Virus record (IMG/VR): IMGVR_UViG_3300030389_003924
Location: 1-36,441 of that record
Direction: 5' to 3' (one strand)
Origin: a virus
DNA: 36,441 nucleotides
The notes under the pieces were generated by a model. That model made no database searches. It saw only the letters and a program-made list of their open reading frames with translations, and was not told where the DNA came from. Each line of letters starts with the position of its first letter. Within the stretch, counting starts at the first letter, position 1. Shown here piece by piece: positions 7,486 to 22,496 of this stretch. Made by a program: the position numbers and the translations under genes.

Positions 7486-9573
7486 TTAGACAGGTGTCCT
7501 TGGCGTATTCATCGAGTCCTGGATCGTTTTTTCATCGATCTCGGTCTTGAATTTTTCTTCAAGTTCTCTCGCTTTCAGTTTGATCTCGGCCTCCATCTCG
7601 TCCCGTTTCCGGTCGTCTTCCATGAGCAGGGTCTGACGTTTCAGATCAAGCTCGGCCTGTTTCATAGCGATCTCCGCCTGGATCTGTTCGGTCTGGGCCT
7701 GTCGGAAAACCTCCTCCGGTGTCGGTTTTGGTTCCGGGGGTGGAGGTGGCTGGAAATTTTTCGGGTCATTGAAGAACTGGCTCGAGTCCTGATACCCTGC
7801 GATCTCGGCCGACTTGACCAGGGCGTTATAAAGTTTGGTCATATCGGTCAGAGGGTTGTTCGGTCCCATCTGCTGGATATAACCTTCCTGCTTGGCGATG
7901 ATCGCCGAGAGGTAGGCCATCCGCTCGGCGTCGTTAGACGAGCTAAGCGGGGCCGTGACTTTGACGTCCATGTCCGAGGTCCAGGACCGGGGGTCTATCG
8001 GGACCCACTGGTTTCTGAGACGGACCACACGGGCCTTCTCCTGGTGTTTCCTTAGTAGGTCGAAGATCCCTTTAAATACCCTCTTCAGGCCTCTCTCGCT
8101 GAACGTGCGGGTGATCATCTCGATCCGGGCCATGGATGCCCTGGACATGAGGTCGATGCCCGTGGCGGTCGTTGACTGGATGCTGGAGGCGTCTAGCCCC
8201 TGGCTGGCCTGGGTGATTCCTGTCCGCCTCTCTTCCTCGGTTCTGAGAAAGTCCCATATCGGGAGGACGGAATTTCCAACGAACGGTACTTGCATGGGGG
8301 TCACGGCCCCGGGCTGGCGTTGTCGGATAATACTCCCGACTTCCGAGTTGAGGACGTCGTCCATTTCCGGGATTGCGGATTCTGTCACTAACAAACGAGG
8401 ATGGATTGACATAGCAAGCGAATCCAACGTATTCCGGAGGATGACGGTTCTTATTCTTTGGAGGTCTTGGACTAGGTCTCCAATCCCGAGCCCCTCTATG
8501 GAGTGGGGTTCCGGATCCGGGACGAAGGTCGCAAAAGGGATGTGATCGCAGGGTTCATCGTGGACGACGTTGTATCCATTCCCTGCACAACAAATTCTTA
8601 ATAATTCGCTATGGCCGTCGCCATTTCGGTCGATTCTGGCATAGCCCTCGATATACTGGACCAGGCGTGAGCCGGGTTCGATGTTGTTGTTTCTTCTACC
8701 GGTCGAATTAGGAAAACGGGAAAGGTATTCGTCGTTGGTGGCGAACTTATCGTCGGTCCCGGAATAGCCTTCCATCAGTTCCCGGTCATAGCCCATGGCG
8801 ACCAGTTCATTCACGGTCTTGTAGGAACGGTGTCCGATGAAATCGGATTCCTCGACGGACTTGGCGTCTCGGGAATAGATGAATTCTTCCGGGGGGACGG
8901 CCTCTACTCGGATTTTTGCTTTAGAGGTAACCCGTCGGATCGATACGTCATGGAGGTTTGGCGGAGGCTGAACCGTACCGTCAGGTAGGGGTAGACCCTC
9001 CTCGGGGGCGTCGGGGTCCGCATAAGCACGGACACTAATCGCCTCGACGTCGTCCTCGCCGAGGAGGACTTGTACTTGTTGTTCACTGAGCCCGGTAAAG
9101 GCCTCGACCTTGATGTCCGGCGTGTCGTCATAGAAGAATTTGACGACCCCCATCCTCTTGATCAGGGCGTCCTTGAAGACGTCACTTAGGACCCGGTAAC
9201 CGTCGCATTCTTCCTTGAAGATAAAATTGACGATGTCGGTGGCCTGTTCGGCGAGTTCGATATCCTGGGGATCCGTGGGCTGGAATTCCAACAACTTCTC
9301 GGATCCAAGGAAAGTCCGCATGAGGGCGGGCATGACCTGGCCTACCGCCGTCTGAATAGTTCGGTCTCGTACTTGGGAACGGCCGTCGGCTTCGTCCCCA
9401 TAAAACCGGCCATGATAGCGATCTGCAAGATCGGATCTTACCGCCGATATTTCGTTGTCCTGGTAGTCTACCGCCTCAGTAATTAGAGACCCGACGTAAC
9501 TCTCAAATTCAACGTCGTCCATCCCCTCAAACGGGAGATCCTCTTCGAGATCCAGGGTCGTGTCTGTTTGCAT
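7486..9573 (-). CDS. Portal protein
   Basis: 695 aa, typical for a P22-type podovirus portal. The N-terminus (FESYVGSLITEAVDYQDNEISAVRSDLADRYHGRFYGDE...GRSQVRDRTIQTAVGQVMPALMRTFLGSEKLLEF) is the classic portal stem and wing start. The middle contains DALIKRMGVVKFFYD and IGDLVQDLQRIRTVILRNTLDSLAM. The C-terminus is a long charged coiled coil (EEVFRQAQTEQIQAEIAMKQAELDLKRQTL...). It forms the dodecameric ring through which DNA is packaged and ejected. Its partner TerL is separated from it by the plus-strand island at 9.7-11.1 kb. Confidence 0.9.
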   Translation of the reverse strand: MQTDTTLDLEEDLPFEGMDDVEFESYVGSLITEAVDYQDNEISAVRSDLADRYHGRFYGDEADGRSQVRDRTIQTAVGQVMPALMRTFLGSEKLLEFQPTDPQDIELAEQATDIVNFIFKEECDGYRVLSDVFKDALIKRMGVVKFFYDDTPDIKVEAFTGLSEQQVQVLLGEDDVEAISVRAYADPDAPEEGLPLPDGTVQPPPNLHDVSIRRVTSKAKIRVEAVPPEEFIYSRDAKSVEESDFIGHRSYKTVNELVAMGYDRELMEGYSGTDDKFATNDEYLSRFPNSTGRRNNNIEPGSRLVQYIEGYARIDRNGDGHSELLRICCAGNGYNVVHDEPCDHIPFATFVPDPEPHSIEGLGIGDLVQDLQRIRTVILRNTLDSLAMSIHPRLLVTESAIPEMDDVLNSEVGSIIRQRQPGAVTPMQVPFVGNSVLPIWDFLRTEEERRTGITQASQGLDASSIQSTTATGIDLMSRASMARIEMITRTFSERGLKRVFKGIFDLLRKHQEKARVVRLRNQWVPIDPRSWTSDMDVKVTAPLSSSNDAERMAYLSAIIAKQEGYIQQMGPNNPLTDMTKLYNALVKSAEIAGYQDSSQFFNDPKNFQPPPPPEPKPTPEEVFRQAQTEQIQAEIAMKQAELDLKRQTLLMEDDRKRDEMEAEIKLKARELEEKFKTEIDEKTIQDSMNTPRTPV

Positions 9574-9647
9574 ACCCTAAAATTTCGATGAAAATCAAAA
9601 AAAATTCACAAAAAAATGGACAATTAGCAATTTTTTGACATCAAGTG

Positions 9648-9676
9648 TTGACAATTTAGAACAAATGTTCTAATTT
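9648..9676 (+). promoter_or_regulatory. Strong plus-strand promoter with palindromic operator in the spacer
   Basis: TTGACA (9648-9653), 17 nt, TAATTT (9671-9676). The spacer and the first bases of the -10 contain a perfect dyad TAGAACA-AA-TGTTCTA (9657-9672). The core GAAC-N4-GTTC has the layout of the Gram-positive SOS box, but it could equally be the site of a phage regulator. The promoter drives the divergent small-gene island starting at 9720. A second TTGACA lies at 9635-9640. Confidence 0.65.
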
Positions 9677-9697: not shown

Positions 9698-9712
9698 AAC
9701 CTTAATCGGAAA
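9698..9712 (+). promoter_or_regulatory. Leader motif AACCTTAATCGGAAA, copy 1
   Basis: One mismatch to the AACCTCAATCGGAAA consensus. It ends 7 nt before the ATG at 9720; an additional AAGG follows it. Confidence 0.6.
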
Positions 9713-9719
9713 GGTAACA

Positions 9720-9989
9720 ATGTTTAAACATCAATGCTTAAAATGCGAAGGGACTGGCCGGGTCGAGTGGGGTATGCACGTTCTCGCTGGCGTCTGTTTT
9801 AACTGTAAGGGTGAAGGCCATGTATTACTCAGAAATAAACGAGTTGAGAAGAAACCCAAGACTCGTTTCAAGTTGTTTATGACCCAGGAAGGTCAGCCCG
9901 TGCATTGCTCTTGGGCCGATACCAAAAAGTCAGCAGAGAAATGGCTATCTATGCCAGGAGAACGCTGGTTCGAGGAAGTCCCACGGTAA
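9720..9989 (+). CDS. Small zinc-ribbon protein, DnaJ-like CxxCxGxG motifs
   Basis: 89 aa. Two CxxCxGxG motifs, CLKCEGTG (Cys6, Cys9) and CFNCKGEG (Cys26, Cys29), form one zinc-binding unit of the DnaJ central-domain type. The C-terminal half (MTQEGQPVHCSWADTKKSAEKWLSMPGERWFEEVP) is separate and unrecognised. There is no J-domain, so it is not a DnaJ co-chaperone by itself. First gene of the plus-strand island, behind a strong promoter and the shared leader motif. It may act on RNA, protein folding or a host target; function unknown. Confidence 0.75.
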   Translation: MFKHQCLKCEGTGRVEWGMHVLAGVCFNCKGEGHVLLRNKRVEKKPKTRFKLFMTQEGQPVHCSWADTKKSAEKWLSMPGERWFEEVPR

Positions 9990-10057
9990 GCCGAAACACC
10001 CCTCCGGGGCGTCGTCCAGGACTAATCGCCTGGGCCTGATGATGGCAGATTCCATTC

Positions 10058-10072
10058 AACCTCAATCGGAAA
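10058..10072 (+). promoter_or_regulatory. Leader motif AACCTCAATCGGAAA, copy 2
   Basis: Exact consensus, ending 5 nt before the ATG at 10078. It decides this start over the in-frame ATG at 10039, which lies upstream of the motif. Confidence 0.65.
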
Positions 10073-10077
10073 TTGAT

Positions 10078-10242
10078 ATGAAAACAGAAACAGACAATAA
10101 CTGGGAATACTGGTTAATCCAACTGGGAGAACGCTATTTCCAGTGGGCCCTCTCTGAGGGGTACACCCATGAAGACGCCTGGAGGTATGCGTCTAAGAAA
10201 GTCAAACAGACCCGTGACAAGTATGAAAAGGAGGTCGCATGA
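10078..10242 (+). CDS. Small protein of unknown function
   Basis: 54 aa from ATG 10078, chosen because the shared leader motif lies just upstream; an in-frame ATG at 10039 would place the motif inside the gene. The protein is MKTETDNNWEYWLIQLGERY... with aromatic and acidic residues in the first half and basic ones in the second (KKVKQTRDKYEKEVA). It looks like a single helical domain with no recognised family. It overlaps the next gene by 4 nt. Confidence 0.65.
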   Translation: MKTETDNNWEYWLIQLGERYFQWALSEGYTHEDAWRYASKKVKQTRDKYEKEVA

Positions 10243-10481
10243 AAGACCCTCGAGAATACATCGTCCTCGCCGGTTCGCCGGTGACGGTCCACTACACGGA
10301 CGAACGTCCCCCCAACGAGACGACCCTCGACTTCCATTACAGATTTGAACGGAAACAGATCCAGCCCGTTCACCTGATAGGTGATGACATCGACTTCGCC
10401 ATAACCGTGCCATCTAAAACCGTGGATTACTATATATTCAGGAAGGAAGACATCCTTCTCATAGAGACGGAGGAAGTATGA
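10239..10481 (+). CDS. Small protein of unknown function
   Basis: 80 aa. The start is supported by AGGAGGT upstream and by a 4-nt ATGA overlap with the preceding gene. The composition suggests a mostly beta fold (EYIVLAGSPVTVHYTDERP..., VDYYIFRKEDILLIETEEV). No family recognised. It is coupled to the HTH regulator that follows (4-nt overlap). Confidence 0.65.
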   Translation: MKDPREYIVLAGSPVTVHYTDERPPNETTLDFHYRFERKQIQPVHLIGDDIDFAITVPSKTVDYYIFRKEDILLIETEEV

Positions 10482-10918
10482 CCCCGGAAGAACTGAAACT
10501 CACCCGGAAGGCCCTGGGCTATTCTCAGAGACGGTTTGCGGAGAGACTCGGGATCTGTTACCAGACGGTCGTGAACTGGGAAAAGGCCAAGACCAAGATC
10601 CCTAAGTTCGCCCCGATGGCCCTTTTGGCTATGGCCTTCGAGGACCGTTTCATCCTCCGCAATGCAATCCACCGGTTCCAGACCGAGGCCCACAACCTCC
10701 TGGTCCGGGCCCATGCGGAGTTCATCGACGGCGAGTATGAGATCGCTGGCCGTCTCATCGGCCAGGCCCTGATCGCCCACGCCCGGAACCCTCTGGACGA
10801 CGTCCAGGCGTCCCTCCGGGAACGTGTCGAGTTGGAAATGGATTTTGCTAAAAAGAACACTGGCTGGCTCGAAGGCCGAGCAGTCAGGACCTCAGATCAA
10901 CCTCAATCGGAAAATTAA
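10478..10918 (+). CDS. HTH (XRE-type) transcriptional regulator-like protein
   Basis: 146 aa. Residues ~1-50 (MTPEELKLTRKALGYSQRRFAERLGICYQTVVNWEKAKTKIP) form a clear XRE/Cro-CI helix-turn-helix, with recognition helix around YQTVVNWE. The C-terminal ~90 residues are helical and charged and lack the Ser-Lys protease domain of RecA-responsive repressors. A GGAGG site precedes the start. As the only regulator in this island, it is a candidate for control of the palindromic promoter at 9648-9676, though that is inference. Confidence 0.75.
   Translation: MTPEELKLTRKALGYSQRRFAERLGICYQTVVNWEKAKTKIPKFAPMALLAMAFEDRFILRNAIHRFQTEAHNLLVRAHAEFIDGEYEIAGRLIGQALIAHARNPLDDVQASLRERVELEMDFAKKNTGWLEGRAVRTSDQPQSEN
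10899..10913 (+). promoter_or_regulatory. Leader motif AACCTCAATCGGAAA, copy 3
   Basis: Exact consensus, ending 6 nt before the ATG at 10920 and lying within the 3' end of the HTH gene. Confidence 0.65.
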
Positions 10919-10919
10919 G

Positions 10920-11120
10920 ATGAAAATTTGGCAAGTGCAGTCTGACTGCAAAGCAGGATATGACGCTGGCAGAGGTGGTTTTTATGCTAGATCAAAAAAA
11001 GAAATCATGAAGGCAATCAAAGAAAATGAATGGGATATGGAAGGTTGCTATATCTCAGTCATTGATGTCGAACCCAACAAAGACGGAATTATCACGGCAC
11101 TGAATAATTCTCAGTGGTAA
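10920..11120 (+). CDS. Small protein of unknown function
   Basis: 66 aa from ATG 10920 (MKIWQVQSDCKAGYDAGRGGFYARSKKEIMKAIKENEW...). The start is fixed by the shared leader motif a few nt upstream. It reads as a small alpha/beta protein with a helical segment in the middle and beta strands after it. Base composition is more AT-rich than in the HTH gene. Last gene of the island; it ends 2 nt before the TerL stop codon on the other strand, so the two transcripts collide. Confidence 0.65.
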   Translation: MKIWQVQSDCKAGYDAGRGGFYARSKKEIMKAIKENEWDMEGCYISVIDVEPNKDGIITALNNSQW

Positions 11121-11122
11121 AT

Positions 11123-12535
11123 CTAAACAACTACCCCGCTTAAACCTCGAATCAACGGGCCCCGGTATCGGGCCCGTCCCCGTCCCCCTGCCAGAACGGC
11201 ATCACTCGCAAAAGTCAGACACAAAGCGTCGGCTATATCCGGCGAGGATATACCTCTCCTTTTCATCTCCTCCTTTGATTCAATCTTCCTTTTATTCGAC
11301 GAAGTATAAACATATCTCGGGCTGGTCAACTCGGTGACCAGTCTCTCATCAGACGGCAACCTCACGTCCCGGGCCCCAAGCCAGTCCCTCAACCGGAACC
11401 ACAACTCCGCCCTCAGATTCACAAAATCCGTCCCCATGGACGGAGACTCGCCCACATTGATCCCTCGGATCGGCACGTCCAGGTCCAACTCTAAAAGTCT
11501 ATCCAACGTCCCGGATCCGATCCCGATGGAATCGATCAGGACCTCGTCAATATCCTCGGATTCGTATTCCTCGAGGTACTCCTGGACCCGCCCAACCAGG
11601 CTCATGGTGTCGAGCCCCTGGAAGGTCCGGATATCATCCAGGACCACATTCCCTTTCCGGGCGACAATGGCCGAATAATCGCCTCCATACCTCGCCACAT
11701 CGACCCCGATGACGACGGGGGAGTCCCATCCCTCGACGTCCCTGGTGACGGCCGACTCGACCAATTCGAGGGGGATCACGCCGTCCTCATCCGCAAGAGG
11801 CCACTCTCCGAGGACCCTGACCCGAAACTGATTGGAATTTTCGGAATATCTCGACTTCATATCGTCGATGAAGTCCTCCGAGGTCCGGTCGGAGTCATAA
11901 CAGGAAATCTTAAGGGTCTTCCAGCGATTCGATAAACGGTTGTGGGTGTCATAGAAAAAGCCAGTGGATCGGACCGGGTTTCCGGCCAGGATCGTGATCG
12001 CCGTACCATGGGTCCCGCCGGACATGGACCCGGCCGAGGCCTCGAATATTTTTTCAGAAATACCGCTGGCCTCGTCATAGACGTTAAGCATATTATCGGA
12101 GTGCAATCCTGCGATACTTTCCACCGAGTCGTCTTTTGATACCCTGAACGTGATAAAACTCTCCTCCGGGGCCTCCTTGAGCCTGATCATCTCCGAGGTG
12201 ATGTCCACTAGGTCGTCCAGGGGTTCAGGGAGGGCCTTGAACCACTTCTTACACTCAGAGGCCAGGGCATCATTCAATTGGGGCTTTGTAGGGGCCGTTG
12301 CGAGGGTTTTTTGAGGAAACTTGAGTAGTGTGTGCCAGACCATGATGATCGCCAGGAGGCACGATTTTCCGACCCCGTGCCCAGACCGGAGGCTGATCCT
12401 GCGTTCGCCATCCCGGATCCACTCCAAAACTTGCTTTTGGTGATTTTGTAGTTTTATTTTCAGCATCTCTTCCGCAAACAGGACCGGGTCAGGCCTATAT
12501 CGGCGGACGAAGTCCCGCCAGACGTCGTTATTCAT
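11123..12535 (-). CDS. terL: Terminase large subunit
   Basis: 470 aa, normal length. ATPase part: Walker A SGHGVGKS (51-58), Walker B NMLNVYDEA (Asp154, Glu155) and a coupling segment with TILAGNP. Nuclease part: GVDVARYGGD (Asp279, Asp286), VLIDSIGIG (Asp335) and SPDIADAL (Asp433/Asp436). It pumps DNA into the prohead and cuts concatemers, docking on the portal. It follows the sigma-4-like gene on the minus strand and is separated from the portal gene by the opposing small-gene island. Confidence 0.95.
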   Translation of the reverse strand: MNNDVWRDFVRRYRPDPVLFAEEMLKIKLQNHQKQVLEWIRDGERRISLRSGHGVGKSCLLAIIMVWHTLLKFPQKTLATAPTKPQLNDALASECKKWFKALPEPLDDLVDITSEMIRLKEAPEESFITFRVSKDDSVESIAGLHSDNMLNVYDEASGISEKIFEASAGSMSGGTHGTAITILAGNPVRSTGFFYDTHNRLSNRWKTLKISCYDSDRTSEDFIDDMKSRYSENSNQFRVRVLGEWPLADEDGVIPLELVESAVTRDVEGWDSPVVIGVDVARYGGDYSAIVARKGNVVLDDIRTFQGLDTMSLVGRVQEYLEEYESEDIDEVLIDSIGIGSGTLDRLLELDLDVPIRGINVGESPSMGTDFVNLRAELWFRLRDWLGARDVRLPSDERLVTELTSPRYVYTSSNKRKIESKEEMKRRGISSPDIADALCLTFASDAVLAGGRGRARYRGPLIRGLSGVVV

Positions 12536-12601
12536 GGATTTTCTTTCTTTTTGGGGTTTTCTTGGAAAGGTCCCGGGGAATTGATGGAAGATTTTTTTCC
12601 T

Positions 12602-12841
12602 TCAAAGAGCCTCGATGATCTTACGGACCTGGTTCCGGTTGTAGTAAACGTCTGACATCGGGATCCCGAGCTTCTCCAGGGCCTGAGATTCAATAATCTT
12701 GACCCGATTATGAGAAACCCCGACCTCCAGGCCGACCGTCTCCAGGGTCTCTTTGGCGGTCGTCTGACTCTTTTTCGGCCGGTCTATCGCAAATCGAAGG
12801 CGGAGGATCTGTTTTTCACGGTCGGAAAGATTATTTTCCAA
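12602..12841 (-). CDS. Sigma-70 region 4-like DNA-binding protein
   Basis: 79 aa. The start appears to be TTG at 12841 with AAGGGG upstream, overlapping the end of the previous gene. Residues ~4-62 (LSDREKQILRLRFAIDRP...TLETVGLEVGVSHNRVKIIESQALEKLGI) match region 4 of sigma-70 factors, including the REKQILRLRF start and the helix-turn-helix with the R-V-K-I-I-E-S-Q-A-L-E-K-L ending. No region 2 is present, so it cannot be a complete sigma factor. It could be a late activator that touches RNA polymerase or the -35 region. Position just before TerL suggests late-gene control. Confidence 0.7.
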   Translation of the reverse strand: MENNLSDREKQILRLRFAIDRPKKSQTTAKETLETVGLEVGVSHNRVKIIESQALEKLGIPMSDVYYNRNQVRKIIEAL

Positions 12842-13196
12842 AGATCCCCTTTTTCTTCAAAGATCCCAAAGATTCCCCCTTTTCCAGGTTGGGGCCTTTG
12901 GTGTTCTTTGGTTTATTTTTCCACCAGGGAAAGGGTTTCTTCTTCATTCCGGCGATCCGCATGATCTCCTTTTCCGGTAACCGGCCCGGTTCCTCCGGAA
13001 AACCCTCAAAAGTAGTGTAAATATTCACTTCCTTCCCTCGGACGACCAGGACCCCGTAGTGTTCAGGCATACTGTCCCTGAACCACTCAGCCCAGGCCTC
13101 TGCTATCTCTTCAGAAGGGGCCTTGATGAGCCCGGAACCGGTCTTCCTGATCTCTTTCCCGAGGCCGTCTAAAAGTTTACTCGGAGGCTTTTTCAA
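12831..13196 (-). CDS. Hypothetical protein with basic tail
   Basis: 121 aa. Residues 1-80 form an alpha/beta domain (EIAEAWAEWFRDSMPEHYGVLVVRGKEVNIYTTFEGFP). The C-terminus is a Lys/Pro/Trp-rich tail (MKKKPFPWWKNKPKNTKGP...), suggesting nucleic acid binding. It overlaps both neighbours. No recognised family. Function unknown. Confidence 0.6.
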   Translation of the reverse strand: MKKPPSKLLDGLGKEIRKTGSGLIKAPSEEIAEAWAEWFRDSMPEHYGVLVVRGKEVNIYTTFEGFPEEPGRLPEKEIMRIAGMKKKPFPWWKNKPKNTKGPNLEKGESLGSLKKKGIFGK

Positions 13197-13854
13197 GAGC
13201 CCAGGCCCAGTTGTAGGATTCCGTCAAAAGAGCCTGTTTCGGGAGGCCCAGGTTCGTCGTCTTCAGCTTAAAATCGGTCAGATACACCTCCGGAAACATA
13301 TCCCTCGACTTCAACCTCGTCCTCGTCCTCTTCAGCCCCTGCCAGTATGCTATCGAGGCATCCATCGCCCTCGGAAGACACTCCCCCTCCGGGATCCGGA
13401 AATAAGGGTTCTGATCGTTATCAAAAAACATCCACCCAAACGCCATCCCCTCGATGTCCCCCTCGTTATAACCGACACTGACCAGGGCGTAGAGGGCGTC
13501 CTTCTTAAAAGAACTCTCCGGGACCAATAACCAGGACCCCAACCTCACCGCCTTGACGTCCAGGGGTATCTTCAACGTCCGGATCTCACCGTCCATAATC
13601 ACAACCTTGAAGTCCGACCCTCCATCCCCCTTCGGCATCACCGACAAGTTGACCGGCCCAACTTCGATCCCCTGGTCCTGGAGAACTTTCTGGAAAACCA
13701 TCTCCCCGAGGATCCCCGTCGTCCAATCCTCAATCTGATTCTCCTCTGTCCTGACACTCAAGGATCCAAATTCACTCCGCCTCTTTCCGGACCTCACAAT
13801 CCGCTCAGCCGATTCACGGGCCACCATCCGGATATCCTCAGAAATCTTAACCAT
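13177..13854 (-). CDS. PD-(D/E)XK-like nuclease-fold protein
   Basis: 225 aa. A possible PD-(D/E)XK core is visible: Glu51 in GILGEMVF, Asp81 in GGSDFKV, and Asp99-x-Lys101 in PLDVKAV, followed by a strand and helix (WLLVPES...DALYALVSV). The order E...D...DxK fits a restriction-endonuclease-like fold. It is one of two such genes between TerS and TerL. It may act in recombination, packaging or host DNA degradation. The fold assignment is motif-based. Confidence 0.55.
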   Translation of the reverse strand: MVKISEDIRMVARESAERIVRSGKRRSEFGSLSVRTEENQIEDWTTGILGEMVFQKVLQDQGIEVGPVNLSVMPKGDGGSDFKVVIMDGEIRTLKIPLDVKAVRLGSWLLVPESSFKKDALYALVSVGYNEGDIEGMAFGWMFFDNDQNPYFRIPEGECLPRAMDASIAYWQGLKRTRTRLKSRDMFPEVYLTDFKLKTTNLGLPKQALLTESYNWAWALEKASE

Positions 13855-14152
13855 GATGGACCTCCACCAAAGGGACTCCCCCCAGCTTCTCCGGGGCCTT
13901 CACCTCCACCTCCGGCGGGTCATGGATCAACCTCAAACACCGGTTCAATATCACCTCCCTATCGATATCCCCCCAGTTCCGCCTCTTCTCCAGGCCCTCC
14001 AGATATCTCTTGTACATATGACGGACCTCCAGCCGGGTCGGGATGTACACCCGCTCGGTTTTCTCCCACGCCCCGACGATCCTCTCCCGGATCATCTCTG
14101 TCTCCAAGAACCTCATCTCATCATGAGTCGTCCATATCTGACTTTTTCTCAT
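13847..14152 (-). CDS. Hypothetical charged protein
   Basis: 101 aa, rich in Arg and Glu (EMRFLETEMIRERIVGAWEKTERVYIPTRLEVRHMYKRYLEGLEKRRNWGDIDREVILNRCLRLIHDPP...). Mostly helical. It overlaps the genes before and after it (14121-14152 and 13847-13854), so it is part of one translationally coupled unit between the two nuclease-like genes. No family recognised. Confidence 0.6.
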   Translation of the reverse strand: MRKSQIWTTHDEMRFLETEMIRERIVGAWEKTERVYIPTRLEVRHMYKRYLEGLEKRRNWGDIDREVILNRCLRLIHDPPEVEVKAPEKLGGVPLVEVHHG

Positions 14153-14561
14153 CCAAAATCCATTTCGGGTTGATAAAATTTTTTGCCATCCACACGTTCT
14201 TCTCCTGGAAATTGCCAGGCTTTTCCGTCCGGATCACCATCGACGCCTTCATCGTCTTCAATGGGATTACCAAAACCTCATCAATATCCGGGATGTACAC
14301 CGTCATGTAATCGACCCGCCGGTAAGGCCTTTCCACAATCCCATTCCGCCTCCCAATGATCCGACGGTTCCGGATGTCCACATAACCCCGGGACGCCCTC
14401 CGATATTTGCACTGTATAAAAAAATTTTTCTTCCCACGGTGTATGGCGATGTCGTACTCCGACGACCTCGAGACCGGGACCGTCACCTCCCAGCCATGGG
14501 ATAAAAAAAGTTCGATGGCTCGGAACTCTCCGATGAGCCCGAGGGCCTCAGTATTGGGCAT
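14121..14561 (-). CDS. PD-(D/E)XK endonuclease-like protein
   Basis: 146 aa. The N-terminal half is a compact PD-(D/E)XK core: Glu12 (LIGEFRAIELFLSHGWEV), Asp37 (SEYDIAI) and Gln50-x-Lys52 (FFIQCKYR). This resembles the small single-domain PD-(D/E)XK endonuclease families related to archaeal Holliday junction resolvases. The second half continues with strands (VDIRNRRIIGR...VDYMTVYIPDIDEVLVIPL) and a basic tail. Together with RusA elsewhere, this phage has more than one candidate branched-DNA nuclease. Confidence 0.7.
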   Translation of the reverse strand: MPNTEALGLIGEFRAIELFLSHGWEVTVPVSRSSEYDIAIHRGKKNFFIQCKYRRASRGYVDIRNRRIIGRRNGIVERPYRRVDYMTVYIPDIDEVLVIPLKTMKASMVIRTEKPGNFQEKNVWMAKNFINPKWILDEKKSDMDDS

Positions 14562-14766
14562 CGTGTGTGTTGGGGCTAGCCACTACCGCCCCTCGATATG
14601 TGGACCCCGGGGGGGGGTATATGCAGGTTCTTGTATATGCAGGAATCTATATGTTCGACAATGTAAGTTATAGTTACATATGGCACTCCCGATCCCGTCA
14701 GACTGGCCCATGTGGCGGTTATAGACTCCGCCACATATAACCCTGGATCCTAGTGATATACTCAAA
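14562..14766. promoter_or_regulatory. Intergenic region with direct repeat and hairpin after TerS
   Basis: 205 nt without a supported gene. It holds a direct repeat GTATATGCAGG (two copies separated by TTCTT, around 14616-14643), a run of eight or nine G, and a perfect 9-bp hairpin ATGTGGCGG...CCGCCACAT (14710-14718 / 14728-14736, 9-nt loop). On the minus strand, TTGTCG-N18-TATACA is a weak promoter candidate for the nuclease genes. A packaging site (cos or pac) could also lie here beside the small terminase gene, but nothing proves it. Confidence 0.4.
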
Positions 14767-15297
14767 CTACCCCTCCCCCTTCCCAGATGTACCGTCAGAT
14801 GTACCGTCATAGGCCTCTGTTAAGGGCTTTGGCGTGACGTCGATTATGTCCCGTAATGCCTCTAGATGGCCCTTCTTGATATTCACATCGGCCGTAACCC
14901 GGCTGTCTATTTTCTCCGAATATATGCCCGGGTTGTCGGCTTTCGTCCTCCACTTGGCGAAGTCAAGGACGACACGGCCAGCATGGGCCTCAATCTCCCC
15001 GGTTCTTACGGCCTCAACGGTTTCCTGGGCATAATCGGCTAGGGATTCGGCCCTCGCCTCCCGGGCACGATCGTAGAGGTCACGCATCCCAGGCGTCTCA
15101 TCAATCCACCTCAATAGCGTCACATGCGGGATTCCCATAGCGTTCCCAACCTTTCTCAGCCCATTCCCTTCAGCGATCATGGACTCAAAAGTGTTCCAAA
15201 ACACGGGGCTTTTCTTTAAAGCCTCGGCCCTTTTCCGGGTCAATCTCCCGGTCTTGGTCAGGAACTGGGTCTTTTTGGCCTGTTTTGGTTCAGCCAA
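14767..15297 (-). CDS. terS: Terminase small subunit-like protein
   Basis: 176 aa if translation starts at TTG 15297, which follows AAAAGGAGGGGA and overlaps the stop of the previous gene; ATG codons at 15321 and 15363 are alternatives with weaker ribosome sites. The protein has a helix-turn-helix (GLRKVGNAMGIPHVTLLRWIDETPGMRDLYDRAREARAESLADYAQETVEAV) and a C-terminal AGRVVLDFAKWRTKADNPGIYSEK, the signature of the P22/Sf6-like small terminase family. It recognises the packaging site for TerL. In this genome TerS and TerL are separated by about 2.2 kb of other genes. Confidence 0.75.
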   Translation of the reverse strand: MAEPKQAKKTQFLTKTGRLTRKRAEALKKSPVFWNTFESMIAEGNGLRKVGNAMGIPHVTLLRWIDETPGMRDLYDRAREARAESLADYAQETVEAVRTGEIEAHAGRVVLDFAKWRTKADNPGIYSEKIDSRVTADVNIKKGHLEALRDIIDVTPKPLTEAYDGTSDGTSGKGEG

Positions 15298-15487
15298 TCC
15301 CCTCCTTTTGAGCCTCGACATAGGACTTGCACTCGTGGATCCGGTCTTGGACGAAGTCGGCAAGATCCTTGGCGACCTTATAGTTGAGGTCGGTCTGGGT
15401 CTCGATAGCTTGTTCGGTGGCCGTCCGTACCCTGGAGTCGATCTGTCTCAAAAGTTCGAGGACGGGAAGGTGAGCGTAATCAACCAT
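15290..15487 (-). CDS. Small helical protein of unknown function
   Basis: 65 aa (MVDYAHLPVLELLRQIDSRVRTATEQAIETQTDLNYKVAKDLADFVQDRIHECKSYVEAQKEGIG), all helix. It starts from an ATG preceded by the shared leader motif (15493-15505), which lies inside the end of the upstream gene. It overlaps the terminase small subunit start. No family recognised; the length and helix content would fit a packaging or regulatory adaptor. Confidence 0.6.
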   Translation of the reverse strand: MVDYAHLPVLELLRQIDSRVRTATEQAIETQTDLNYKVAKDLADFVQDRIHECKSYVEAQKEGIG

Positions 15488-15791
15488 AGCGATCTCCGAT
15501 TGAGGGGTTGAGTTGTCGGAGGCATTCTGAAGTCATTTTGAACGTCTCCTGGTACTGGGTTTGCGGGTCCATCATGTTGAACTCCTCCCAGGTGTATTTG
15601 AGTCTGAGCTTGTCCACATAACAGTCACACGTGTCGGCGTGTTTAGTCTTGGAGATATCGGGCCTATGTTCAGTCAGGGCATTGAAACAGAGATACCAGA
15701 CCTCCCTAATTTTTAACGTCTCATAGGTCCCTTTGAACTGGGCTATGGCTATAGAGGGAACAAATACCATAAATAGGATCAGATTCTTCAT
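15480..15791 (-). CDS. Exported protein with signal peptide and cysteines
   Basis: 103 aa. The first ~18 residues (MKNLILFMVFVPSIAIAQ) form a clear signal peptide with an A-I-A-Q type cleavage site. The mature part contains five cysteines, including DTCDCYVD. No lipobox is visible, so it should be periplasmic or secreted. A GGGGG ribosome site precedes the ATG. Its position among DNA-metabolism genes is odd; candidates are a superinfection-exclusion or lysogenic-conversion factor or a spanin-like protein, none of them proven. Confidence 0.65.
   Translation of the reverse strand: MKNLILFMVFVPSIAIAQFKGTYETLKIREVWYLCFNALTEHRPDISKTKHADTCDCYVDKLRLKYTWEEFNMMDPQTQYQETFKMTSECLRQLNPSIGDRYG
15493..15505 (-). 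promoter_or_regulatory. Leader motif CCTCAATCGGAGA, copy 4
   Basis: Minus-strand copy with one change (GGAGA for GGAAA), ending 5 nt before the ATG at 15487. It is coded within the C-terminus of the exported protein. Confidence 0.5.
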
Positions 15792-15813
15792 AAAAACCCC
15801 CTACAATGCATTT

Positions 15814-16224
15814 TTATTGGCTTATCCATAAATCCGTATGGGCTAGGTGTATTTCTTCTCTTGTTGGCGAATCTGAGCATCCCCTGACGAATGCTTCCAC
15901 CCCGCCTTTGCCGTCGATCCCATTCTTCCGGGCCATGATGATCCGGATGAGATTATCGTTCTCGAATGCCAATCCCTCGAGGGCGTCCGTGGTGACCTTG
16001 ATGCAGTTATCGAGATCACGGGTCGCCGTCCGCTTATCCTTTGGGAAGGTAACCACGAGACCCATCGAGACAGGCCCCTTGATCATCCGGAGTTTCTCCA
16101 CCAGGAAGATACTTTGGACGGTGGCCTTGTATTCCTTCGCCTTCTTCGAGACATAGACCCGATTGTTTCCGACCCTCCAGTAGGCGTTCGCTGACGGAGG
16201 CCACGGTAAGAACACTCTGATCAT
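15814..16224 (-). CDS. rusA: Holliday junction resolvase RusA
   Basis: 136 aa. It begins with LPWPPSANAYWRVGNNRVYVSKKAKEYKATVQ, the family start (PPS-N-x-YWR). The catalytic aspartates are visible: DLDN gives Asp70 and Asp72, and FENDN gives Asp90, at almost the same numbering as E. coli RusA (70, 72, 91). It cuts branched DNA made during recombination or replication so that it can be packaged. It follows the helicase-loader-like gene by 6 nt, in a replication and recombination block. Confidence 0.9.
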   Translation of the reverse strand: MIRVFLPWPPSANAYWRVGNNRVYVSKKAKEYKATVQSIFLVEKLRMIKGPVSMGLVVTFPKDKRTATRDLDNCIKVTTDALEGLAFENDNLIRIIMARKNGIDGKGGVEAFVRGCSDSPTREEIHLAHTDLWISQ

Positions 16225-16230
16225 GTCAGA

Positions 16231-16770
16231 CTATGATATCGATGCGACGATACGTTCTTCCTCCCTCGGATCGGGTGAATTTCGTACCGTTGAGATTAAT
16301 GACTTTAGGACGTTCTCCGGGTCCCCCTTGAACTTCATCGGGTTGAATAGTTCGTTCCGGTCGGCCTTTGTCCTCAGACGCCCCTTGTTCTCCTGACGGC
16401 GTCTTTTCCGTTCTAGCTCGGCGATCTTTGGATCGGATAAAATCTCGGATTTTAATGACTGAATCCGGGCCTTCTGTTCGTCGCTGATCTGAGACCGAGG
16501 AGGCGGACTCGGTAAAGCCTTCACTGGGTCCCAACGGTCCCGAGTGAATCGGACGCCTCCCCGGATGTCCGCAGGTTTGGGCCAGTAGTTCTTGGCCTGG
16601 ATGTGTTCGAGGAATGAGTTTCTGATCTGGTCCGGGGTCAGCCCCCTGAGTGCTATCCCCCAGGCCTGTACGTCCCGTTCCGTCACTTTCCCCATCTCCT
16701 TCACGTGGTTCTGATAACTCGTTTCGCAAAGCCTCAATCCATCGATTATGGCGTCGGTAGTCCTTTCCAT
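16231..16770 (-). CDS. Replicative helicase loader-like protein
   Basis: 179 aa. The N-terminal ~70 residues (RDVQAWGIALRGLTPDQIRNSFLEHIQAKNYWPKPADIRG) resemble the helicase loader/inhibitor family of phages, where a helical bundle ends in a WPKPADI motif. The C-terminal part is long, charged and probably disordered (ELERKRRRQENKGRLRTKADRNELF). It presumably recruits the host DnaB helicase to the phage origin. It follows a helical gene that follows the replication initiator-like gene. An alternative overlapping frame is discussed separately. Confidence 0.65.
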   Translation of the reverse strand: MERTTDAIIDGLRLCETSYQNHVKEMGKVTERDVQAWGIALRGLTPDQIRNSFLEHIQAKNYWPKPADIRGGVRFTRDRWDPVKALPSPPPRSQISDEQKARIQSLKSEILSDPKIAELERKRRRQENKGRLRTKADRNELFNPMKFKGDPENVLKSLISTVRNSPDPREEERIVASIS

Positions 16771-16811
16771 CCTGGATCCTTTCCGGTTTAAGGTTTTTAA
16801 GTTCTAGTTTT

Positions 16812-17132
16812 TCAAGAGGCGTGATGATCATGCTCTGACCTCCATCCTGTCCGTTTACTGAATTCAACCTTCGCCTGGTCTATCTCTTCCTGGGTGATCG
16901 TTATGCCCTGATCTTTTTTCTGGCATCCCAGGATCTGGGAAGAGATCACGTCACGGCGTGTTCTTGGAATGAGGGCCTCCGGCGGGGCCCCGAATCCGAA
17001 TGAGTCCAAGACGGCGGAGGCGTGTCGGTCGGATCCTTCAGCAATCCTTTCCAGGAATTTATCTGCAGACTGGGGACCAAACCCTCGGTCCTCGGAGTCT
17101 GTCCCGGTTAAGGGTAGGCCTTTATCCATCAT
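16812..17132 (-). CDS. Hypothetical protein in replication block
   Basis: 106 aa from ATG 17132, chosen because GGAGG lies 7 nt upstream and the stop of the previous gene overlaps it (AGATGATGG). The sequence begins MMDKGLPLTGTDSEDRGFGPQSADKFLERIAEGSDRHASAV and ends in a charged, His-rich tail. Mostly helical; no family recognised. Its place between the initiator-like and helicase-loader-like genes suggests a replication role. Confidence 0.6.
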   Translation of the reverse strand: MMDKGLPLTGTDSEDRGFGPQSADKFLERIAEGSDRHASAVLDSFGFGAPPEALIPRTRRDVISSQILGCQKKDQGITITQEEIDQAKVEFSKRTGWRSEHDHHAS

Positions 17133-17905
17133 CTTCCGCCCTCCAGGACCTTGAGGTTCTGACGGCGGTCCAGGACGGTGTCCAAGAATCCGGTCTCGTC
17201 TTTGGATCGGGCCCATGAGGCCCCGCTTTTCTTAGTCTGGAAATCTCGGTAGTGGACGCCTTGCCAACCGGATCCGATGGCGTGGTGAATGGCTTGGACG
17301 ACGTCCGTCCCTTTCCGGTACTCGGTCAGGGCGGAGGTCAGGAATGATTTAAGTCCGGTTTTGCCTTTGTAGGCTTTGGATGTCGGACCTTCAACTTGCT
17401 TGTACTCGAGCCAGTCATCGAGTGCCTCCGGAAACCCTTCCAGGTTTTGGAGGTCAATCGGGATCTGGACGGCCTCGAGTAGTTCCAGTGGATTCAATTT
17501 TTTCGAGGGCATATCTTCCTTTAAGGATTTCTTTTTATATATATAAGACAAAGGGTGTCGGTCACCGCCACCTTTGAGGTGTCGGTCGTCGCCACCTATT
17601 ATTTGGTTGAATTGGCCGGTCAATCTCGGGGATTTTTTGAGAAGGATGTAGCCGACACGTCGGCCCTCTTTGACCTTCTCCAGGAACCCTTTTTCTTCAA
17701 GGGTCCGGGATACCCGGGAAATCTTTTTAACGTCCGACCAGTGGAGTTGATGGGCGAGGATCTCCGCCTTGGCGAAGACTGGTTCCCCTTCGGCGTCTTG
17801 AGCCCTCTCGTATGCCTTTAAAAGGGTCAAGAGCCTCATGCCTAAGACATCCAGGTCTTGGTCTAGGAACCAGTAGTCGACGTCCATGTCGAGTTTGTAA
17901 TACAC
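17129..17905 (-). CDS. Replication initiator-like protein
   Basis: 258 aa from GTG 17905 with AAGGAAG upstream. Residues ~15-90 form a winged helix (DVLGMRLLTLLKAYERAQ...VKKISRVSRTLEEKGFLEKVKEGRRVGYILLKKSPR). The C-terminal part (WLEYKQVEGPTSKAYKGKTGLKSFLTSALTEYRKGTDVVQAIHHAIGSGWQGVHY) matches the DnaD/phage replication protein type that contacts helicase or its loader. Between the two is a low-complexity linker (GGDDRHLKGGGDRHPLSY) encoded by two 20-bp direct repeats, which may be the origin, as in lambda O. Confidence 0.7.
   Translation of the reverse strand: MYYKLDMDVDYWFLDQDLDVLGMRLLTLLKAYERAQDAEGEPVFAKAEILAHQLHWSDVKKISRVSRTLEEKGFLEKVKEGRRVGYILLKKSPRLTGQFNQIIGGDDRHLKGGGDRHPLSYIYKKKSLKEDMPSKKLNPLELLEAVQIPIDLQNLEGFPEALDDWLEYKQVEGPTSKAYKGKTGLKSFLTSALTEYRKGTDVVQAIHHAIGSGWQGVHYRDFQTKKSGASWARSKDETGFLDTVLDRRQNLKVLEGGR
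17554..17597. repeat. Two iteron-like direct repeats inside the initiator-like gene
   Basis: GGTGTCGGTCACCGCCACCT (17554-17573) and GGTGTCGGTCGTCGCCACCT (17578-17597), 18 of 20 identical, 24-bp period. They sit beside the AT-rich stretch TTTTTATATATATAAG around 17532-17547. Iterons next to an AT-rich unwinding region, inside an initiator gene, are the arrangement of lambda-type origins. Candidate origin of replication. Confidence 0.5.
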
Positions 17906-18091
17906 GTTCTTCCTTAAGTTATACCTGACTGACGGCCACCGTCGGCCGTCGGAAATTTATCGACTTTCTTTTTGGTTACCATCTCCAGGCCAGGTGAGAG
18001 CAAAGGGAAGGTAAAACCTGGGGAGGAAGGGCTAAGGTAAAAATCCCGTCCTGCCAACCCTGGCTGGGTTTGGACCGTCAGCCGGTCGTTT
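17906..18091. terminator. Intergenic stretch with hairpins, possible attenuator
   Basis: No supported gene. It has a perfect dyad GACGGCC-ACCGTC-GGCCGTC (17931-17950) and an imperfect one around 18053-18072 (CCAACCC/GGGTTTGG). Neither is followed by a long T-run on the minus strand, so termination would be weak; an attenuator or regulatory RNA structure is possible. Confidence 0.35.
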
Positions 18092-18238
18092 TTATTCTGC
18101 TTGAGGCCAATCACGTTTGATTCTGATCTCTTCGATTTCTTCCTGGTCCAGGAATCGTTTGACCCGCCAGACCATGTAAAGGACGCCGAAAATCACGACG
18201 ACCAGGTGGACGTAAACCAATAAATTTAGAAAACTCAT
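18092..18238 (-). CDS. Small single-pass membrane protein
   Basis: 48 aa, starting at ATG 18238 with GGAGGT at an ideal distance. The first ~24 residues are a transmembrane helix (MSFLNLLVYVHLVVVIFGVL...), followed by a basic stretch (WRVKRF) and a charged cytoplasmic tail (LDQEEIEEIRIKRDWPQAE). Positive charge right after the helix predicts the tail inside the cell. It lies between the annealing protein and the initiator-like gene. Function unknown; membrane effects of superinfection exclusion or host takeover are possible. Confidence 0.6.
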   Translation of the reverse strand: MSFLNLLVYVHLVVVIFGVLYMVWRVKRFLDQEEIEEIRIKRDWPQAE

Positions 18239-18258
18239 GCCGACCTCCAAGTAACAGT

Positions 18259-18990
18259 TCATGCAGTTTGTGCAGTCAGTTCCTCAGTCGCCTTCAGACC
18301 GTCTCTGAAGGACTTAATTTCTGTTTCCAGGATATAGATATCCTTCTTCTTAAAACAGCCCATGGCGTCCACCCAGTACTGGGCCAGCCACTTATTCACC
18401 TCCTCCGAGGTCTTCAGCTTTTTTACCTGGGCTAAACATTCTTGCCGGTTATCCCAGGGCCCCTTTGACTCTTCTTTCGTCTCCGTCGATTCTGAGCGTT
18501 TTTCCTTGGCATCCAGTTCCGGCGGATCCACATCACTGGGGTCCAGCGGGTTATCCTCTTTGGTATAGATATCGAGGCCCAGGCCACACATGGCGATGGC
18601 CTTAACCAGGCATCTCTGATTTGTTTTGTTAATATCAAACATATCCGCCCCGTTACCGTAGGGTTTCGGAAGGAGGGCCTTGTTCCGGGAGTCCATGACG
18701 AACAGATCCGCAAACCTGACGGGCGTCTCTTCATCCTTCAGGTCTACACCGATCTCGACCATGTATCCCTCCGGGCTGACCAGGTACGGGACCTGGGTGT
18801 TTTCCATCCAGATTGGGCCTTCTTTCCCGAATATAATCAGGGGCCAGTTCCGTTGGGTGTAGGTGGATTTAGGGTAGTGCTTAAGGAGTTCATTCCAGGC
18901 ATGGGTCCAGGGGAGGTAATCAAGCCGACCCTTCTTGGCGGTGAGGTGGCTGACGTCGATGGATCTTAAAAATTCAAAACTACTTGGCAT
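18259..18990 (-). CDS. Single-strand annealing protein, Sak/DUF1071-like
   Basis: 243 aa. Residues ~17-145 contain KKGRLDYLPWTHAWNELLKHYP, VEIGVDLKDEETPVRFADLFVMD and ADMFDINKTNQRCLVKAIAMCGLGLDIY, the DUF1071/Sak-type core that belongs to the Rad52-like annealing proteins. The C-terminal third is charged, including a KEKRSESTETKEESKG linker. It anneals ssDNA made by the exonuclease encoded upstream, forming a recombination pair. The start codon is preceded by the shared leader motif (18998-19011). Confidence 0.8.
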   Translation of the reverse strand: MPSSFEFLRSIDVSHLTAKKGRLDYLPWTHAWNELLKHYPKSTYTQRNWPLIIFGKEGPIWMENTQVPYLVSPEGYMVEIGVDLKDEETPVRFADLFVMDSRNKALLPKPYGNGADMFDINKTNQRCLVKAIAMCGLGLDIYTKEDNPLDPSDVDPPELDAKEKRSESTETKEESKGPWDNRQECLAQVKKLKTSEEVNKWLAQYWVDAMGCFKKKDIYILETEIKSFRDGLKATEELTAQTA

Positions 18991-18997
18991 AATTCAA

Positions 18998-19011
18998 TTC
19001 CGATTGAGGTT
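18998..19011 (-). promoter_or_regulatory. Leader motif AACCTCAATCGGAA, copy 5
   Basis: Minus-strand copy, ending 7 nt before the ATG at 18990. It overlaps the last codons of the exonuclease gene. Confidence 0.6.
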
Positions 19012-19825
19012 AATTCAAAGCGTAGTCCGGTAACTCGACGGACTCGATGATGTTGCTGAACCCGTAGACAGAGTCGGCGGGATCATAATCCTGGAGATCA
19101 ACTAAGGCATTAATATATTGCGTCCGTCCGATATCCAGTTGATGGGCTGGGATCGTGTAGATCCCGACCTGGTAAGGAGGCGTCTTGTTGACTAAGACAA
19201 AAACGTATTCAACGTCGTCGCCGTGATACTTCGCACAATCTATGTAAAACGACGCCCGGCGGTGATACCCGCTATCGGCACACGCCCGGATAAACCCTTG
19301 GCGGGTCGCATCCCTGGCGGTCTTCAGGTCCATCCAATACTTGCCGTTGACCCAGTCGGGCCGGGCCTTCAGTTTATGACCGTCCTTTTCCCAAAAATAG
19401 GAAACTTCTGGGGATCCGGACTTCATCATTAGCTGGACGAGGGGATGGGCTAGGACTGACTTCGCCATTGCCTGGGCGAGGTCTAGCTGTTCCTGGTCAA
19501 TCATGACCAAGTTCTTCTCGAAGGCCTTTTTATTCAGGCCCTCGATTATTTTTTTATTTTCCGGGTTTCTTTGATCCAGTTTCGGGATCAAGATATACTG
19601 TTTTCCAAACTGATCCGGCTCAAGGACCAAGGTGTGAGTCAAGGTCCCGAGTTTCATGTCGTTGGTCTGCTTCTTTGGATGTGCCTTTTCGTACCGGAGG
19701 GCATAGACGCCCCGCTTGTGGACGGTCTCGCAATCACCGGCGGAGGTCGCCGGATCCGCATGGTATTCCGCCGACGGCATATCCGGCCTGACCATCTTTG
19801 ATATTTGTGATTCCCTTGTGATCAT
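19010..19825 (-). CDS. RecE/exodeoxyribonuclease VIII-like exonuclease
   Basis: 271 aa from ATG 19825; an ATG at 19867 lies upstream of the leader motif and is not preferred. The PD-(D/E)XK core of the RecE-like family is visible: LGTLTHTLVLEP (His64), SPEVSYFW (Glu140), LKARPDWV (Asp157) and MDLKTARDA (Asp166, Lys168), then YHRRASFYID as the family Q/Y motif region. It resects DNA ends 5'-3' so that the annealing protein can act on the 3' overhang. Confidence 0.85.
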   Translation of the reverse strand: MITRESQISKMVRPDMPSAEYHADPATSAGDCETVHKRGVYALRYEKAHPKKQTNDMKLGTLTHTLVLEPDQFGKQYILIPKLDQRNPENKKIIEGLNKKAFEKNLVMIDQEQLDLAQAMAKSVLAHPLVQLMMKSGSPEVSYFWEKDGHKLKARPDWVNGKYWMDLKTARDATRQGFIRACADSGYHRRASFYIDCAKYHGDDVEYVFVLVNKTPPYQVGIYTIPAHQLDIGRTQYINALVDLQDYDPADSVYGFSNIIESVELPDYALN

Positions 19826-19837
19826 GTTATTTTTTTG

Positions 19838-19852
19838 TTTCCGATTGAGGTT
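19838..19852 (-). promoter_or_regulatory. Leader motif AACCTCAATCGGAAA, copy 6
   Basis: Exact consensus on the minus strand, 12 nt before the ATG at 19825, with an A-rich spacer. The longest spacer of the six copies. Confidence 0.65.
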
Positions 19853-20244: not shown

Positions 20245-20404
20245 TCGCTTTCCTTTCTGCGATGAGTTCATTCACCGCCTGATTGATTTTATCGTTCAGC
20301 TTTGGACTCAGGACCCTGCTGACGACGGTTGGATCAAGGCCAGCCTTCCTGGCGACCTCGACCTGAGAGATCCGATATTTTTTAATCATTTCAAGCATTT
20401 GCAT
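20237..20404 (-). CDS. Cro-like HTH protein
   Basis: 55 aa from ATG 20404 (ATG 20398 is also possible). Residues ~6-33 (MIKKYRISQVEVARKAGLDPTVVSRVLS) form a helix-turn-helix, with SQVEVARKAG as helix 2 and DPTVVSRVL as the recognition helix. It is the first gene of the minus-strand early operon, directly opposite the CI-like repressor, with the operator region between, as in the lambda-type switch. There is no clear ribosome site (the leader is AAGTTTAAA), so it may have a very short leader. Confidence 0.65.
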   Translation of the reverse strand: MQMLEMIKKYRISQVEVARKAGLDPTVVSRVLSPKLNDKINQAVNELIAERKANA

Positions 20405-20435
20405 TTTAAACTTGTCAAGTTATGATGACTGATCA

Positions 20436-20464
20436 ACGATAAGGTTGACAATTTTTATTGTCAA
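20436..20464 (-). promoter_or_regulatory. Early minus-strand promoter overlapping operator
   Basis: Read on the minus strand: TTGACA (20464-20459), 17 nt, TATCGT (20441-20436). Transcription would start near 20430, about 25 nt before the Cro-like ATG. The -35 lies inside the operator palindrome, so repressor binding would block it. Confidence 0.5.
20445..20464. promoter_or_regulatory. Palindromic operator TTGACAAT-N4-ATTGTCAA
   Basis: Perfect 8-bp arms around TTTT. Further half-sites TTGTCAA occur at 20412-20418 and 20485-20491, and ATGTCAA at 20475-20481, so about five half-sites span 80 bp between the Cro-like and repressor genes. Likely target of the phage CI- and Cro-like proteins. Confidence 0.65.
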
Positions 20465-20770
20465 TTTTAGTTATATGTCAATATTTGTCAACACCTTTTT
20501 CAAGAAAGGCGTCATATGAAGAATCAAACAACGGGGGCCGAGTGGTCCCGGCACTCTCAAATCGCCTGGTATGGGCAAACTTTCTGGGGGGGCATATGAA
20601 ATGGGTTAATTGTCGAGGCGGATTTGTTAAGTATCACCCGCCACCACAAAAAAACGGAATGCTGAATGCGGGAACCAGCATTAAAACCTCACCGCAAAAT
20701 ATTATGGAGATTTTGTATATGTCTGTAAGACGACAGGCGTGGACTGATTTTCATCCGCCACCAAAAAATA
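20465..20770 (+). other. Leader region upstream of the repressor
   Basis: About 300 nt. No firmly supported gene. A 27-codon frame at 20516-20599 has an AAAGG site and overlaps, by ATGA, a second open frame from 20596 that runs on into the repressor sequence in another frame. Two imperfect 27-nt direct repeats, CACCCGCCACCA... (20635-20661) and CATCCGCCACCA... (20752-20778), lie here, the second ending over the repressor ATG. TGTCAA half-sites at 20475-20491 belong to the operator cluster. A repressor promoter is expected but I cannot place it. Confidence 0.45.
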
Positions 20771-22270: not shown

Positions 22271-22291
22271 TCAATTATGCACGGACGAGGA
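22271..22291 (+). repeat. Integrase arm-type direct repeat, left copy
   Basis: 21 bp, TCAATTATGCACGGACGAGG plus A, immediately after the integrase stop. It matches 22476-22496 at 20 of 21 positions, with the tRNA core about midway between them. The arrangement is what arm-binding sites of a lambda-type intasome look like. Confidence 0.65.
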
Positions 22292-22321
22292 ATCAATTCA
22301 GGCGTACTCAACAAAACATCT

Positions 22322-22340
22322 GATTTTCTTGAAGAAAATC
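22322..22340. repeat. Perfect palindrome next to the attP core
   Basis: GATTTTCTT-G-AAGAAAATC, 9-bp arms around one base, directly abutting the tRNA-derived sequence at 22341. It may be a core-type integrase site, an accessory-protein site or the end of the host tRNA identity block. Confidence 0.5.
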
Positions 22341-22400
22341 TGGTAGAGCATCTGACTTTTAATCAGGTGGTCCTGGGTTCGAGTCCCAGCCGACCCACCA
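22341..22400 (+). other. attP core: 3' part of a tRNA-Lys(UUU) gene
   Basis: 60 nt from the D-arm to CCA. The D-arm end GGTAGAGCA, anticodon stem-loop TCTGA-CTTTTAA-TCAGG (anticodon UUU), a 5-nt variable loop, T-stem CTGGG/CCCAG with a TTCGAGT loop, acceptor CCGACCC, discriminator A and CCA are all visible. The 5' acceptor strand and the first half of the D-arm are missing, so this is not a working tRNA. On integration it would restore the host tRNA gene. Confidence 0.9.
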
Positions 22401-22444
22401 GAACCCTTGTATTTCCAAGGGTTCAGACGTTTCCGGGGGAAACG
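22401..22444 (+). terminator. Two stem-loops after the attP core
   Basis: GAACCCTTG-TATTTC-CAAGGGTTC (22401-22424, 9-bp perfect stem) and CGTTTCC-GGG-GGAAACG (22428-22444, 7-bp perfect stem). The first could be the host tRNA terminator carried within the identity segment or a terminator for the integrase transcript. No T-run follows, so intrinsic termination would be weak. Confidence 0.4.
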
Positions 22445-22475
22445 CCAATCCCCCGAAAATCCCTTAAATAACCGC

Positions 22476-22496
22476 TCAACTATGCACGGACGAGGA
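22476..22496 (+). repeat. Integrase arm-type direct repeat, right copy
   Basis: TCAACTATGCACGGACGAGG plus A, one mismatch to the left copy at 22271-22291; spacing from copy to copy is 205 bp. Confidence 0.65.

Follow-up and report, generated by a model that had tools for sequence, protein, structure and literature searches.

A conserved 15-nt leader at the starts of early and accessory genes in a podovirus-like phage family and its link with a predicted hammerhead ribozyme

Introduction

Six genes of a phage genome, transcribed from both strands, carry copies of one 15-nt sequence a few bases before their start codons, which raises the question of what this sequence does, and whether it acts as RNA or as DNA. 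The window, that is, the whole stretch of DNA analysed, is the entire virus record IMGVR_UViG_3300030389_003924 (36,441 bases). Genes for the portal, scaffold, major head protein, large and small terminase subunits (TerL and TerS), tail fibre and endolysin, together with an integrase gene placed beside a tRNA-Lys 3' fragment, mark the phage as temperate and podovirus-like.

Results

Layout of the genome

The minus strand carries most of the genes, and its early block holds those of an exonuclease and a Sak protein. Between TerL and portal, five small genes form a plus-strand island (9720–11120), which lies antisense inside the late block. A candidate promoter of the island was spotted by eye and was not called in a consensus promoter scan (Table 1). 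The perfect palindrome in its spacer, TTAGAACAAATGTTCTAA (GAACN4GTTC, LexA-like), is common to the window and the related contig L051, and contig L035 has a different operator-like repeat; these elements suggest control of the island by the SOS response or by the phage's own repressor. Beside the integrase, the tRNA-Lys fragment (22342–22391) is enclosed by two direct copies of the 21-nt sequence TCAAYTATGCACGGACGAGGA, one at 22271 and the other at 22476, and this region (22271–22496) is probably attP with arm-type sites. The divergent HTH genes at 20400–20770, with repeated operator-like sequences TTGACAAT/ATTGTCAA, likely represent the immunity region. Searches for the host returned nothing, either via the portal in GTDB genomes or via the exact tRNA-Lys attachment core.

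Table 1. Leader copies, ribozyme, genes and candidate promoter in the window
Feature	Position	Strand	Remarks
Candidate island promoter	9648–9676	+	TTGACA-N17-TAATTT; palindrome GAACAAATGTTC in spacer; weak -10
Leader copy 1	9698–9712	+	AACCTTAATCGGAAA, one mismatch; 7 nt before ATG 9720
Island gene 1	9720–9989	+	Small CxxC zinc-ribbon-like protein, 89 aa; leader gene
Type II hammerhead ribozyme (predicted)	9989–10054	+	Rfam RF02276, 46.7 bits (gathering 37)
Leader copy 2	10058–10072	+	Exact; 5 nt before ATG 10078; 3 nt downstream of the ribozyme match
Island gene 2	10078–10242	+	Orphan, 54 aa; leader gene
Island gene 3	10239–10481	+	Orphan; strong ordinary SD (GGAGGT); no leader
Island gene 4	10478–10918	+	XRE/HTH_3 regulator; ordinary SD (GGAGGA); no leader
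Leader copy 3	10899–10913	+	Exact; 6 nt before ATG 10920; in 3' end of XRE gene, reads QPQSEN*
Island gene 5	10920–11120	+	Orphan, 66 aa; leader gene
TerS-proximal gene	15290–15487	-	Orphan, 65 aa; leader gene; kept in relatives
Leader copy 4	15493–15507	-	Variant CCCCTCAATCGGAGA; 5 nt before ATG 15487; in 3' end of ORF 15480–15791
Sak-like single-strand annealing protein	18259–18990	-	Leader gene
Leader copy 5	18997–19011	-	AACCTCAATCGGAAT, one mismatch; 6 nt before Sak start 18990
Exonuclease VIII-like (PDDEXK, DUF3799)	19010–19825	-	Leader gene
Leader copy 6	19838–19852	-	Exact; 12 nt before exonuclease start 19825

Leader copies in the window

Ten sites in the window match the motif with at most three mismatches, compared with 1.96 expected, and this number was reached in none of 100 shuffles. 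The five copies with at most one mismatch and the variant at 15493 (three mismatches in the full 15 nt, one if the 13-nt core is taken) all precede an ATG and all lie in gene direction, which bears out the six copies, 5–12 nt before an ATG, listed in a preliminary description of this DNA; the scan against shuffled sequence proposed there did not turn up an excess of randomly placed copies. That description had also assigned the motif to DNA-metabolism genes and the island and not to late genes, in agreement with the copies seen before the exonuclease, Sak, one gene near TerS and the island genes. Its statement that three copies lie within the 3' end of the upstream gene holds for those at 10899 and 15493 and not for that at 18997, which only reaches the exonuclease stop codon.

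No conserved leader was seen before the late genes; the near-match at 4192, placed 11 nt before a tail gene, is not kept in the relatives and was rejected. Three other weak matches were discarded as well, that at 5327 having no nearby ATG, that at 6471 being located within the scaffold gene and that at 20028 resembling the motif only at three mismatches.

Position and conservation in the relatives

An exact scan of IMG/VR with the motif gave 77 loci, most of them single chance matches, and a dozen of them carry copies of the family, in most cases several. Relatives identified by protein search share 78–95% identity in the portal and 67–93% in the exonuclease, and four of the TerL relatives exceed 90%. 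An ATG is placed 4–12 nt downstream in all 38 distinct copies with up to two mismatches (window and IMG/VR relatives), the probability for a random 15-mer being 0.116. The spacing is 4–7 nt in 32 copies and 12 nt in the other six, all of which belong to the exonuclease. Outside the family, by contrast, only 8 of 50 exact matches in IMG/VR are followed by such an ATG, which is the chance level, and the signal is therefore specific to these phages. Absence of the motif from the starts of close relatives, which the preliminary description had held to speak against its proposal, was not observed. In more distant TerL relatives (40–52%), a de novo search revealed no leader and a model search gave no convincing ribozyme.

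Pairs of copies within the same phage are identical at 90% of positions over the 15 nt, a figure biased upward because the sites were picked by motif similarity, against 25% upstream and 31% downstream, values that are free of this bias. In the same comparison AATCGG is invariant and the next A is kept at 98%. The relatives are mostly represented by contig fragments, and not all copies are independent, some being orthologous, a limitation addressed by this within-phage comparison and by the 24 unrelated protein families found behind the leader. At the end of ORF 15480–15791 (window and three relatives) the overlapping leader is invariant in 15 of 15 columns, compared with 77% of columns in the coding sequence upstream and 50% of those downstream.

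A hammerhead ribozyme in front of the leader

A closer feature, overlooked in the preliminary description, is a predicted type II hammerhead ribozyme directly upstream of the leader at 10058. It begins on the final base of the TAA that ends ORF 9720–9989, and cleavage is predicted between 10013 and 10014. The predicted fold has the catalytic core, three stems, with I and III closed, and the loop I–tail pseudoknot of the type II class, the last formed by 10024–10027 and 10048–10051. This pseudoknot reads AAUC/GAUU in the window and GAUC/GAUC in the other aligned hammerheads, a compensatory change. In an alignment of seven hammerheads (six from the leader phage family and one from contig L202), 98.6% of the cells are paired and 11 of 21 pairs have changed on both sides, values reached in none of 500 shuffles. 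The relatives carry one or two hammerheads each at the same place.

The ATG at 10039, within the ribozyme core (CUGAUGA), would extend the ORF of island gene 2 in frame, and the leader copy at 10058 lies in an ORF only if this ATG is the start. The leader points instead to 10078, and thereby corrects a gene start that automatic annotation could put inside the ribozyme.

Hammerheads of this type are also placed at or within one base of a stop codon in contigs L194 and L202, Pelagibaca phage P1 and Rhodovulum phage RS1, where most of them are followed by an ordinary Shine-Dalgarno sequence (SD) instead of the leader. The L194 (12206–12272 and 13180–13242) and L202 (2291–2353) elements belong to the same subtype, in contigs that have no leader; behind the second L194 element there is a terminator-like hairpin and not a gene start. 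In P1 and RS1 (L206 2997–3069 and L207 2997–3075) the hammerhead abuts the stop codon of an HU-beta gene, with GCGAAAC immediately after the TGA; an ordinary SD and the start of the next gene come right after the hammerhead. In Streptomyces phages Salutena and Omar (L205 and L208), sequences resembling type II hammerheads lie between small orphan genes close to the end of the genome, at positions that carry no annotated feature. A further contig, L120, whose terminase is distantly related, contains two group I introns (9452–9675 and 10280–10504) about 830 bases apart.

Gene exchange at the leader

Behind 43 leaders, 24 unrelated protein families were found, and in front of them 16 kinds of sequence, among them the ribozyme, a GC hairpin, the end of a coding region or a promoter; in the relatives, the exonuclease leader comes after a GC-rich stretch that resembles a hairpin. 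Six different protein families occur with the ribozyme as their upstream sequence, and two or three each with the promoter region, the end of the XRE gene and a GGGCC hairpin. Conversely, one protein family was found behind two different hairpins. With the same upstream sequence joined to different ORFs and the reverse, the point where similarity between phages ends is often the leader or the ATG that follows. By this comparison of sequences the leader marks cassette joints, and the earlier suggestion that genes are shuffled with their own leader is borne out by relatives that exchange genes behind the same leader. The cargo is nearly all orphan: for 23 cargo proteins compared with Pfam, PADLOC and PHROGs, the matches concerned mainly a zinc-ribbon-like protein and the XRE regulator, all others being few and marginal.

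These joints could mean that the leader is mainly a short homology at which the phage exonuclease and Sak anneal and swap cassettes, translation being incidental. Exchange does break at the leader or the following ATG, and the exonuclease and annealing genes are leader genes themselves. However, 15 nt is short for annealing, the distance to the ATG is tight and the orientation always that of the gene, and the exonuclease, Sak and TerS-proximal leaders are kept although no gene exchange was seen there among the relatives. A primary role as recombination joint is thus considered unlikely.

Relation to the ribosome-binding site

As the preliminary description had proposed, the conserved stretch extends far beyond the needs of an SD; only its GGA can pair with the anti-SD. 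Pairing energies of the leader genes are weak to moderate (-3.5 to -6.6 kcal/mol); weak pairing is by itself nothing special, being found in many of the phage's late genes too. The 12-nt spacer of the exonuclease leaders does not suit GGA as an SD. With E. coli rrsH as a stand-in for 16S rRNA, 25 of 100 shuffled motifs paired as well as the motif, and its accessibility or single-strandedness revealed nothing special.

It is very improbable that the leader is a plain ribosome-binding site spread by copying and conserved by descent rather than function. In most copies the 3' part does place GGA at SD distance, but conservation reaches 10 nt beyond the anti-SD pairing, leaders within one phage remain 90% identical despite unrelated flanks, and the two island neighbours without leader have strong SDs of their own. 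With GGA alone pairing and the SD energies weak to moderate, the first ten bases call for more than an ordinary SD.

RNA or DNA element

Copies on both strands near gene starts could also represent an operator or promoter just upstream of the genes, and in cluster K mycobacteriophages genes with start-associated sequences (SAS) often have a promoter-bearing extended element (ESAS) just upstream (PMC11373665). Here, however, no fixed promoter elements were seen upstream, the context being ribozyme, hairpin, coding sequence or promoter depending on the copy, and some copies are located within apparent operons. What stays constant is the distance to the ATG and not that to a promoter, and one class of leader copies follows an RNA, predicted to cleave itself, that must be co-transcribed with it. 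Because of this fixed distance, the freely varying upstream sequence and the position of that class behind an RNA expected to self-cleave, a role as DNA is unlikely. The least probable reading is that of an antisense or small RNA target, since no separate conserved anti-leader of at least 9 nt was found in the phage or its relatives, although the island, antisense within the late block, would place leader complements on the late strand if transcribed through, and late minus-strand read-through would carry an anti-leader able to pair with the exonuclease and Sak leaders.

Discussion

The 15-nt sequence is probably an RNA-level translation-initiation element for the early and accessory genes of this phage family. 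Placed in ribosome-binding position in the mRNA, it would set or regulate translational initiation for early recombination genes and small accessory genes. Its 3' half contains a minimal SD (GGA, 7–9 nt from the ATG in most copies), and the conserved AACCUCAAUC before it would be read most likely by a phage or host RNA-binding factor and less likely by the ribosome itself. SD, 16S match and accessibility do not explain the motif, which leaves recognition by another factor or a direct effect on initiation. Since such a signal would be self-contained, it could be the standard joint of exchangeable cassettes, in which the stop codon is followed by a ribozyme, a hairpin or nothing, and then by leader and ATG. 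Where a type II hammerhead is present, its cleavage would cut the island transcript, and the downstream cistron would then begin with the stem-I hairpin and the leader.

The nearest parallels are the SAS of cluster K mycobacteriophages, short asymmetric motifs within about 3–9 nt of starts, only of non-structural genes (PMC3203893, PMC11373665). The leader is likewise short, asymmetric, more conserved than a ribosome site and limited to non-structural genes of unrelated families (24 here), and all 38 leaders are at 4–12 nt, 32 of them at 4–7. The SAS of cluster K, however, reads GGGATAGGAGCCC, with an AGGAG that pairs with 16S rRNA, occurs in 11–19 copies per genome and is preceded in about half of the cases by a 17-bp inverted repeat, the ESAS (PMC3203893, PMC11373665). 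The leader reads AACCTCAATCGGAAA, offers only GGA and pairs with 16S rRNA no better than shuffles. Six copies are present in the window and up to seven in a 5.5-kb fragment of a relative; hammerheads, plain hairpins or nothing stand upstream, with no shared 17-bp repeat seen; and the phage is an unrelated podovirus-like one. Cluster EF Microbacterium phages have an SAS-like 13-bp motif, GGGAAAGGACCCC, in ten copies with a weak ESAS upstream (PMC7302621), which shares the ribosome-site position with the leader and is unrelated in sequence. Judged by sequence, 16S pairing, copy number and upstream repeat, the leader is a parallel case to the SAS of clusters K and EF and not a member. The role of the SAS in both groups is still termed ill-defined (PMC3203893, PMC7302621, PMC11373665).

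The ribozyme part is of a known kind. According to Perreault et al. 2011 (PMC3088659), clustered hammerheads flank single genes of changing identity in prophages and have, as here, the type II form with a loop I–tail pseudoknot. In the present family each hammerhead starts on the upstream stop codon and has a family-wide start leader within a few nt. No description of such a fixed link between hammerhead and shared leader was found in the papers searched, including the sections consulted of PMC3088659. For a phage factor acting on the translation-initiation regions of many early genes, as proposed here, T4 offers a parallel in RegA and RegB, which control early mRNAs, the targets of RegA being without long conserved sequence and RegB needing GGAG/U (PMC3014915); no homologue of either was seen among the ORFs scanned, and no gene emerged as a candidate regulator.

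A more tentative extension, which we regard as rather doubtful, is that stop codon, hammerhead, universal leader and ORF are interchangeable units of a phage RNA cassette platform, in which cleavage would give monocistronic mRNAs. All leader genes would then be switched on or off jointly by a dedicated trans-acting factor.

In actinobacteriophages, the role of start-associated sequences has been a puzzle since 2011. A phage family unrelated to these, in which a sharper start motif is tied to ribozymes and visible gene exchange, makes the function of such sequences testable by simple reporters. The leader may also serve as bait, as the small early genes it points to are variable and for the most part orphan, the sort among which anti-defence genes may hide.
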